NCBI RefSeq assembly: GCF_000373145.1
Contig: NZ_KB890623.1
Coordinates: 1 to 64,000, forward strand
Reading direction: 5' to 3'
DNA: 64,000 nt
DNA from: Thermus oshimai DSM 12092
Lineage (GTDB): Bacteria > Deinococcota > Deinococci > Deinococcales > Thermaceae
The notes beneath the pieces are model-generated. The model searched no databases, was not told the origin of the DNA, and worked only from the letters and a program-made list of their open reading frames with translations. Of the stretch, positions 40,461-42,822 are shown one piece after another (position 1 is the first letter of the stretch; every line of letters starts with the position of its first letter). A program made the position numbers and the translations under genes.

Positions 40461-41294
40461 CTAGGCCTCAGAGGTGCGGGCCAGGGCGAAGGCCTTGGGG
40501 AAGAGGCGGAGCCGCTCCCAGGGCTTCAGGTGGGCTCTTTGGGAGAGGTTGTCGTACCCCTGGAGGCGGAGCTTGTCCAGGATGCCCTGGTACTGGAGGG
40601 CGGCGAGGGCGACGGCCGCCCGCCCCACCCTTAACCCCTTAAGCCCGGAAAGCCCCTCCCGGTAAAGGGCCCGGGCCTTGGCCTCCAGGTGCTGGAGGAG
40701 GGCCCGGTACTGGGGGGTGACCCGCCCCCGGCGGAGGTCCGCAAGGTCCACCCCGAAGCGCTCGAGGAGCTCCCGGGGGAGGTAGACCCGGTCCATCCCC
40801 AGGTCCTCCCCCACGTCCCGGAGGATGTTGGTGAGCTGCATGGCCTGGCCCAGGCGGACCGCCTTCTCCTCCACCTCCTTCCCCCCGCCCGCGATGGGGG
40901 CCATCATCCGCCCCACCGTGCCCGCCACCCGGTAGCAGTAGAGGAGGAGCTCCTCTTCCGTTTCCAGCCGCACCGGGCCGAGGTCCGTGAGGAACCCCTC
41001 CCGCATGTGGGCGAAGGCCTCCAAGGGGATGGCCCAGCGCTCCAGGGCCCAGGCGAGGCCCCGCTCCCACGCCGCCCTTGGCCTTCCCCCATAGGCCCGC
41101 TCCACCCCCTTCCACCAGGCCTCGAGGGCCCTTTCCCCCCCGCCCCGGTCCACCGCGTCGTCCCCCAGGCGGCAGGCGGCGTAGACCGCCCAGGCCCCCT
41201 TGCGCTCCTCTTTGGGAAAGAGGAGGCTTCCCCAGTAAAAGGTGGCGGAGTGGACACGCACCACCCTGGCCAGGGCTTTCCAATCCGGTTCCAT
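40461..41294 (-). CDS. crtB: Phytoene synthase
   Basis: Condenses two geranylgeranyl diphosphates to phytoene, the first committed carotenoid step. The 277-residue protein has both Asp-rich sites: CRLGDDAVD near 42-50 and LTNILRDVGEDLGMDRVYLP near 155-174, the squalene/phytoene synthase signature. It is the first gene of a six-gene minus-strand operon. The upstream sequence holds a -10-like TAAGAT (minus strand) 24 nt from the ATG but a poor -35, as expected for an activator-dependent promoter. Confidence 0.96.
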   Translation of the reverse strand: MEPDWKALARVVRVHSATFYWGSLLFPKEERKGAWAVYAACRLGDDAVDRGGGERALEAWWKGVERAYGGRPRAAWERGLAWALERWAIPLEAFAHMREGFLTDLGPVRLETEEELLLYCYRVAGTVGRMMAPIAGGGKEVEEKAVRLGQAMQLTNILRDVGEDLGMDRVYLPRELLERFGVDLADLRRGRVTPQYRALLQHLEAKARALYREGLSGLKGLRVGRAAVALAALQYQGILDKLRLQGYDNLSQRAHLKPWERLRLFPKAFALARTSEA

Positions 41295-41295
41295 A

Positions 41296-41311
41296 ATGAA
41301 CTTAGGTTCAT
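41296..41311. promoter_or_regulatory. Palindrome just upstream of crtB, possible operator
   Basis: ATGAAC, spacer TTAG, GTTCAT is a perfect 6-bp inverted repeat two bases before the crtB start codon, next to a second CTTAG. It overlaps the expected transcription start or early leader of crtB. A protein-binding role is inferred. Confidence 0.45.
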
Positions 41312-41353
41312 CTTAGCGTGCCTCCGGGACATTTGCCCCGGCTACACTTGGTA

Positions 41354-41386
41354 GATGGACATATATTTGACAAAGCTTGTACACCC
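41354..41386 (+). promoter_or_regulatory. Three 11-bp direct repeats, putative CarH/LitR operator
   Basis: Three consecutive 11-bp units read GATGGACATAT (41354-41364), ATTTGACAAAG (41365-41375) and CTTGTACACCC (41376-41386), sharing T-x-[GT]-A-C-A at the same position. This fits the tandem 11-bp repeat (consensus T-x-T-A-C-A) that I remember for T. thermophilus CarH. The middle unit contains the -35 of litR, so binding would block polymerase. Confidence 0.75.
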
Positions 41387-41395
41387 TGTTACCCT
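41367..41395 (+). promoter_or_regulatory. Promoter of litR
   Basis: Consensus -35 TTGACA (41367-41372), a 17-nt spacer and -10 TACCCT (41390-41395). Transcription should begin at about ATG 41402, giving a leaderless message. Confidence 0.8.
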
Positions 41396-41401
41396 AAGGC
41401 C

Positions 41402-42238
41402 ATGGTCCGCTCCGGGGTGTACACCATCGCCGAGGTGGAGGCCATGACCGGCCTCTCCGCTGAGGTCCTGAGGCAGTGGGAGCGCCGCTACGGCTTCCCC
41501 CGCCCCGAGCGCACCCCTGGGGGGCACCGCCTGTACCGCGAGGAGGACGTGGAGGCCCTCAAGGCCATCCGCCGCTACCTGGAGGAGGGGGCCACCCCCC
41601 AGGCCGCCATCCGCCGCTACCTGGCCCAGGGGGTCCGGCCCCAGGGCTTAGAGGAAGACCTCCTCCAGGCCCTCCTCCAGGCCGACCTCCCCCGGGCGGA
41701 GGCCCTTTTCCGCAAGGGCCTGAGGCTTCTGGGCCCCGAAGGGGCGCTCACGGGGCTTCTCGTCCCCGTGCTCCGGGCGGTGGGGGAGGCCTGGCACCGG
41801 GGGGAGGCCAGCGTGGCCCAGGAGCACCTGGCGAGCCACTTCCTCCGGGCCCGCATGCACGAGCTATTGGACCTGGTGGGCCAGCCCAAGGGGCCCCCCA
41901 TCCTGGCCACCACCCCTCCGGGGGAGCGGCACGAGATGGGGGCCATGCTGGCCGCCTACTTCCTGCGCCGGGGGGGGTTGCCCGCCCTCTACCTGGGCCC
42001 CGACACCCCCCTTTCCGACCTCAAGCACCTGGCGGAGCGGCTTTCCGCCCGGGGGGTGGTCCTCTCCGCCCTCCTGCCGGACCCCCTTAGGGCCCTTCCC
42101 GACGGGGCCCTGAAGGGCCTGGCCCCCAAGGTGGTCCTGGGGGGGCAGGGGGCGAGCCCCGAGGAGGCGGCGCGGCTGGGGGCGGTGTACGTGGAGGATC
42201 TGGAGAGGCTGCCCGAGGTTTGGGAGGAGAGAGCATGA
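41402..42238 (+). CDS. litR: LitR/CarH, B12-dependent light-responsive MerR-family repressor
   Basis: Adenosylcobalamin photoreceptor and repressor of carotenoid genes, 278 residues. The N-terminal MerR helix-turn-helix reads [27 protein letters not shown], followed by the four-helix B12 cap. The light-sensor motif W-x9-EH is present (W followed by nine residues, then EHLASHFLR). The B12 fold follows with ERHEMG as the E-x-H-x-x-G lower-ligand loop and [12 protein letters not shown]. In the dark, the tetramer should bind the 11-bp repeats; light breaks the Co-C bond and frees DNA. The start is chosen from the leaderless promoter; 28 further upstream codons cover the promoter. Confidence 0.95.
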
Positions 42239-42822
42239 AACGCTATAGCCGCAAGGAGGCCATCTATCTCGCCGGAGACCGGGCGGACACCCTCTACCGG
42301 CTTCAGGAAGGCTTGGTGCGCATCGTGGAACTCCTGCCCGACGGCCGCACCCTCACCCTGCGCCACATCCTCCCCGGGGACTTCTTCGGGGAGGAGGCCC
42401 TGGAGGGGAAGCGCCACCGCTACGCCGCGGAGGCCATGACCGAGGCGGTGGTGGTGGGCCTGGACCCCAAGCGCATGGGCCACGAGGAGCTCCAGCTGGT
42501 GGCCCGCAACCTGGCCCGGCAGATGCGCCGCGTCCAGGCCTACGAGGCCCACCTGCAGACCGGGGAGCTTCGGGCCCGCATCGCCCGCTACCTCCTCTTC
42601 CTGGCGGACACCCCGGCCTCCTTCCGGGACGAAAGGGGCCTTTACGTCACCGCCTCCCACGAGGAGATCGCCGACGCCACCGCTTCCACCCGGGAGTCCG
42701 TGTCCAAGCTCCTTTCCGAGCTCCGCCGGGAAGGGTTTTTGGAGACCTCCTACCGCCGGGTCTACCTCCTGGACCTAAAGGCCCTCGAGGCCCTGGCGGA
42801 GGGCCAGCTGGAGGCGGCATGA
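42235..42822 (+). CDS. ldrP: CRP/FNR-family transcription activator, LdrP-like
   Basis: The 195-residue regulator has a cyclic-nucleotide-binding-like barrel: [32 protein letters not shown]. The C-terminal winged helix has [33 protein letters not shown]. The cAMP pocket Arg-Ser pair is not seen, so it may act without ligand. Length and place match T. thermophilus TTHB099/LdrP, which activates crtB. The ATG overlaps the litR stop (ATGA), so LitR indirectly controls the operon through this protein. Confidence 0.9.

Follow-up and report, generated by a model that had tools for sequence, protein, structure and literature searches.

Upstream of carH in Thermus oshimai DSM 12092, three short direct repeats extend across the predicted promoter of the gene, which raises the question whether they constitute the operator by which CarH (LitR) controls its own transcription. 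In Thermus thermophilus, the target of CarH is an array of three tandem 11-bp repeats of the form nnnnTnnACAn, with the -35 box falling within one of them (PMC9304148; PMC8156234). The protein does so as a tetramer loaded with adenosylcobalamin (AdoCbl), which uses three of its DNA-binding domains and dissociates into monomers in the light (PMC9304148; PMC8156234). Its repression extends to its own gene and to ldrP, the product of which is an activator of the photolyase gene and of the crt operon (PMC5401885). For our analysis we have used a stretch of 64,000 nucleotides of the T. oshimai genome (contig NZ_KB890623.1, positions 1 to 64,000), which is referred to as the window. The features of the locus are listed in Table 1.

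Table 1. Features of the crtB-carH-ldrP region, with positions counted from the first nucleotide of the window.
Feature	Position	Strand	Remarks
Direct repeat 1, GATGGACATAT	41354-41364	+	T-nn-ACA at 41356-41361; predicted part of the CarH operator
Direct repeat 2, ATTTGACAAAG	41365-41375	+	holds the carH -35 box TTGACA (41367-41372)
Direct repeat 3, CTTGTACACCC	41376-41386	+	T-nn-ACA at 41378-41383
Predicted carH -10 box, TACCCT	41390-41395	+	TAnnnT in nearly all relatives
carH (litR)	41402-42238	+	MerR-type DNA-binding domain and cobalamin-binding domain
ldrP, CRP/FNR-family activator	42235-42822	+	4-base overlap with the carH stop codon
crtB, phytoene synthase family	40461-41294	-	divergent from carH; synteny with HB27
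Conserved element ATTTGCCCCGGCTACA (plus-strand reading)	41331-41346	-	belongs to the crtB promoter; consensus TTTTGYCCYGnCYACA
Predicted crtB -10 box, TAAGAT	41310-41315	-	relatives show TAnnnT at a similar position when inspected by eye

As read directly from the DNA, three copies of T-nn-ACA start at positions 41356, 41367 and 41378 in an exact 11-bp register. In the frame of the published motif nnnnTnnACAn the repeats occupy positions 41352-41362, 41363-41373 and 41374-41384, and together they match 12 of the 12 fixed bases. A previous sequence-only reading of the locus had described three repeats in this register with the shared pattern T-x-[GT]-A-C-A, with TTGACA contained in the central one and with a G in the first two repeats at the place where the third carries a T. 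Our inspection of 41354-41386 confirms each of these points, the base preceding ACA being G, G and T in repeats 1, 2 and 3, with the specification that the x and [GT] of this pattern correspond to unconstrained positions of the published motif. The 11-bp spacing which it had ascribed to the sites of the T. thermophilus tetramer agrees with the literature (PMC9304148; PMC8156234). A fourth repeat was convincing neither upstream nor downstream of the three, the downstream TTACCC at 41389 being only a partial match.

Together with TACCCT, which follows after a spacer of 17 bp, the TTGACA hexamer of the central repeat forms the predicted carH promoter, a prediction made from sequence. A sigma-70 scan for TATAAT did not detect a promoter at carH because TACCCT fits this consensus at only three of six positions, and the -10 box was therefore called from its conservation across relatives. 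The ATG of carH (41402) is located six bases past this box, which predicts a carH-ldrP mRNA with little or no leader. The same six-base gap is also found in the Thermus loci that we have compared.

The identity of the encoded regulators is well defined. CarH scores 512.5 bits against the corresponding NCBIfam equivalog (cut-off 400), matches the Pfam families MerR_1 and B12-binding_2 and shares 76% of its residues with CarH from T. thermophilus HB27. Within the DNA-binding domain the two proteins do not differ over residues 4-33, and they share the Wx9EH motif that caps the adenosyl group (W131-x9-E141-H142), H132 and the lower axial H177 of the cobalamin motif. The T. thermophilus CarH structures (PDB 5c8d, 5c8e and 5c8f) are among those nearest to the protein. 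Its neighbour LdrP scores 362 bits against the NCBIfam LdrP equivalog (cut-off 300), and 107 bp separate the coding regions of crtB and carH. What the window itself establishes are the repeats, their register, their overlap with the -35 box, their uniqueness and conservation and the identity of CarH and LdrP. The region 41352-41386 is very probably the operator of the adjoining carH, orthologous to the one in HB27. The claim of the sequence-only reading that a CarH operator extends across the litR -35 box is thus supported by the identity of CarH, the comparison with HB27 and the published motif.

For an analysis of conservation we have assembled 26 Thermus carH loci (the one in the window, the one in HB27 and 24 from whole genomes), which comprise 23 distinct sequences and which all align without gaps between 48 and 16 bases ahead of the ATG. 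The repeats are not missing from close relatives, as the 25 other loci all carry the block with unchanged spacing to the carH ATG, although in most of them one outer repeat is degraded. Among the distinct sequences, TTGACA of repeat 2 is invariant (23/23), which taken alone could be explained by its role as -35 box. In repeat 1, AC is found in 23/23, the T in 18/23 and the last A in 18/23, and in repeat 3 the T and the C are found in 23/23, the first A in 15/23 and the last A in 19/23, with the n positions being mostly more variable than the T, A, C and A. Unlike many species with a degraded outer repeat, T. oshimai contains all three repeats in complete form. In three genomes (L010, L019 and L021) crtB is found apart from carH and the repeats have remained beside carH, from which we conclude that they serve the carH promoter. 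The knowledge of the T. thermophilus operator is in this way extended to another Thermus species, with the operator bases kept over 26 carH loci. A perfect triple is also present in L083, which represents the family's other genus with a closely related carH. The carH promoters of other, more distant Thermaceae (L090, L091, L093, L094 and L095) contain two tandem T-nn-ACA pairs instead of three contiguous repeats, the pairs being mostly 23 bp apart, around TTGACA.

Less conserved bases can tune the affinity of CarH, and a smaller number of full repeats leads to weaker binding (PMC9304148), both of which would speak for the suggestion of the sequence-only reading that CarH binds the array with affinities that differ sufficiently between repeats to permit graded repression. 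We regard such grading as unlikely. The G/T position from which it was derived is an n in the motif, repeat 2 has a G in every Thermus, which is fixed because of the -35 box, and in T. thermophilus a CarH tetramer spans all repeats (PMC9304148). As far as it rests on a base outside the published consensus, the remark is unsupported. A difference in repeat strength would more plausibly arise from the A of the secondary consensus nAnnTnnACAn (PMC8156234), which is found ahead of repeat 1 only (A at 41353, T at 41364 and G at 41375) and whose lack in repeats 2 and 3 would favour graded affinity; this base is variable among Thermus relatives too. Whereas HB27 carries the secondary A before all three repeats, it is absent before repeats 2 and 3 in the window, and the affinity of the operator may for this reason be lower than in HB27.

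Could the array instead be an ordinary -35 box in AT-rich promoter DNA, with the two other T-nn-ACA copies arising by coincidence? TTGACA is the sigma-A -35 consensus, which by itself yields one repeat, and the sequence here is rich in A and T, against a GC content of about 69% for the window as a whole. We consider such a coincidence highly improbable. In repeats 1 and 3 the T, A, C and A are better conserved than most n positions and keep the exact register. A single copy of the exact triple, free of mismatches, is present in the genome of 2.26 Mb, compared to zero occurrences of a backwards control pattern, and a score of 12/12 was not reached in any of 400 dinucleotide-shuffled versions of the crtB-carH intergenic region. 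A search of the same genome with the exact pattern has revealed no second perfect triple. The tandem pair has two matches in the window, both at the carH operator, versus 0.12 expected, and ten across the genome, of which two are the carH operator site. Three of the other tandem-pair matches contain TTATCCACA and resemble DnaA boxes. When allowing for up to one mismatch, 27 Thermus genomes contain 38 sites for the pattern versus 9 for the control. By hand count, 21 of the 38 are carH operators and three are located between rhodopsin and retinal-synthesis genes, and the remaining 14 are near background level. A near-triple in another place of the T. oshimai genome (L088, G000:C1:79214-79241) was rejected as CarH target. 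It forms the palindrome TGTAAACCCAAAGTTTATA and overlaps with TTGACA, and since a similar palindromic promoter is found in G019 (L089), it is probably the site of another regulator.

Equally improbable in our view is the binding of another regulator of the crtB-carH region in place of CarH, such as the CRP-like LdrP, which is encoded next door and on which the T. thermophilus crt genes depend (PMC5401885), since the LdrP consensus is the palindrome TGTRnYCYRGRnYACA (PMC7662524) and not an 11-bp direct repeat, and since the best LdrP-like element is located outside of the repeats and travels with crtB and not with carH. This element, which is found at near-fixed distance from crtB in most relatives, is a candidate for an LdrP site or for the -35 region of crtB and lies outside the CarH operator. 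In genomes where crtB is farther from carH (L019, L021 and L025), the CarH repeats remain next to carH and the element, or what looks by eye like a close variant of it, accompanies crtB, which defines two separable promoters. In most relatives the element agrees with the LdrP consensus from the literature at 10-11 of 14 positions. In the T. oshimai sequence alone the fit is insignificant, with 464 of 2000 shuffles being as good, and an LdrP site was not accepted on this basis. A published study did not find an LdrP site near crtB (PMC7662524), and the element bears on the disagreement in the literature concerning such a site.

Besides the carH promoter, in-register repeats of the CarH type are found between genes encoding a microbial rhodopsin (PF01036) and a divergently oriented beta-carotene 15,15'-dioxygenase (PF15461) in each of the seven Thermus genomes that encode a full-length rhodopsin. 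The seven come from related species and are thus not independent. The PF15461 dioxygenase acts in retinal synthesis. In three of these genomes the repeats form perfect triples (L037, L044 and L048; 1501-1528). At the equivalent spot, three of the other four contain two good repeats and a partial one (L074, L075 and L078) and the last a weaker triple (L073). Taken singly, the sites are as good as 16/400 shuffles for L073 and 18/400 for L074, both of which are marginal, and 2/400 for L075, with L078 compared by eye only. In the first two repeats the T, A, C and A hardly vary, including in genomes whose middle repeat differs from TTGACA, and the intergenic region of one genome carries TACACAACACTTGTACAACTTGTGTACA. 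We consider it somewhat probable that these repeats constitute a second CarH operator in rhodopsin-bearing Thermus, by which the B12-dependent switch would also turn on rhodopsin phototrophy. If true, the gene pair would link a B12 photoreceptor to the capture of light energy, and the switch would cover rhodopsin phototrophy besides carotenoid shielding. No rhodopsin was found in the genome of T. oshimai, and this second operator therefore concerns its relatives only; plasmid records searched for rhodopsin did not contain a Thermus match. In the literature, of which our coverage is incomplete, we have found no link between CarH and Thermus rhodopsin, and the finding may be new. In a few Thermus genomes carH is interrupted or shortened, and in four others short rhodopsin remnants are found (loci L026, L027, L030, L031 and L079-L082). 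Both observations possibly reflect a loss of light-related genes within Thermus or assembly errors.

For the carH operator itself, a mechanism can be proposed by analogy, in which binding, tetramer geometry, release by light and activation by LdrP are carried over from what has been published for HB27. In the dark, adenosylcobalamin-loaded CarH would assemble into a tetramer. Three of the four DNA-binding domains would contact the array of three 11-bp repeats from one face of the helix, masking the -35 box, and RNA polymerase would therefore be unable to start transcription of carH-ldrP. Light would break the Co-C bond, upon which the tetramer would fall apart into monomers and release the DNA, permitting transcription of carH and ldrP from the leaderless or nearly leaderless start. 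LdrP would in turn activate transcription from the opposite strand, of the crtB operon as well as of the photolyase gene.

Judged by its sequence, the feature is an orthologous copy of the known T. thermophilus switch and as such ordinary. The comparison with the region upstream of T. thermophilus carH, which the sequence-only reading had proposed as a check, has revealed the same three repeats in the same place. HB27 (PDB 5C8E complex) and the window both contain three tandem 11-bp T-nn-ACA repeats with the -35 box in the middle one, equally far from the carH start and with crtB divergent and ldrP downstream, the repeats reading TGGACA/TTGACA/TGTACA in the window and TGTACA/TTGACA/TATACA in HB27. 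The CarH operators of Bacillus megaterium are alike in that 11-bp T-nn-ACA direct repeats overlap with the promoter but differ in their number, with four repeats, or three and one pseudorepeat, compared to three in Thermus (PMC9304148). Similarly, the myxobacterial CarA/CarH operators at Pcrt consist of 11-bp repeats with TTGACA within one of them, but there the repeats, full or partial, number five within about 55 bp, and CarA or CarH occupies them in dimeric or oligomeric form (PMC9304148).
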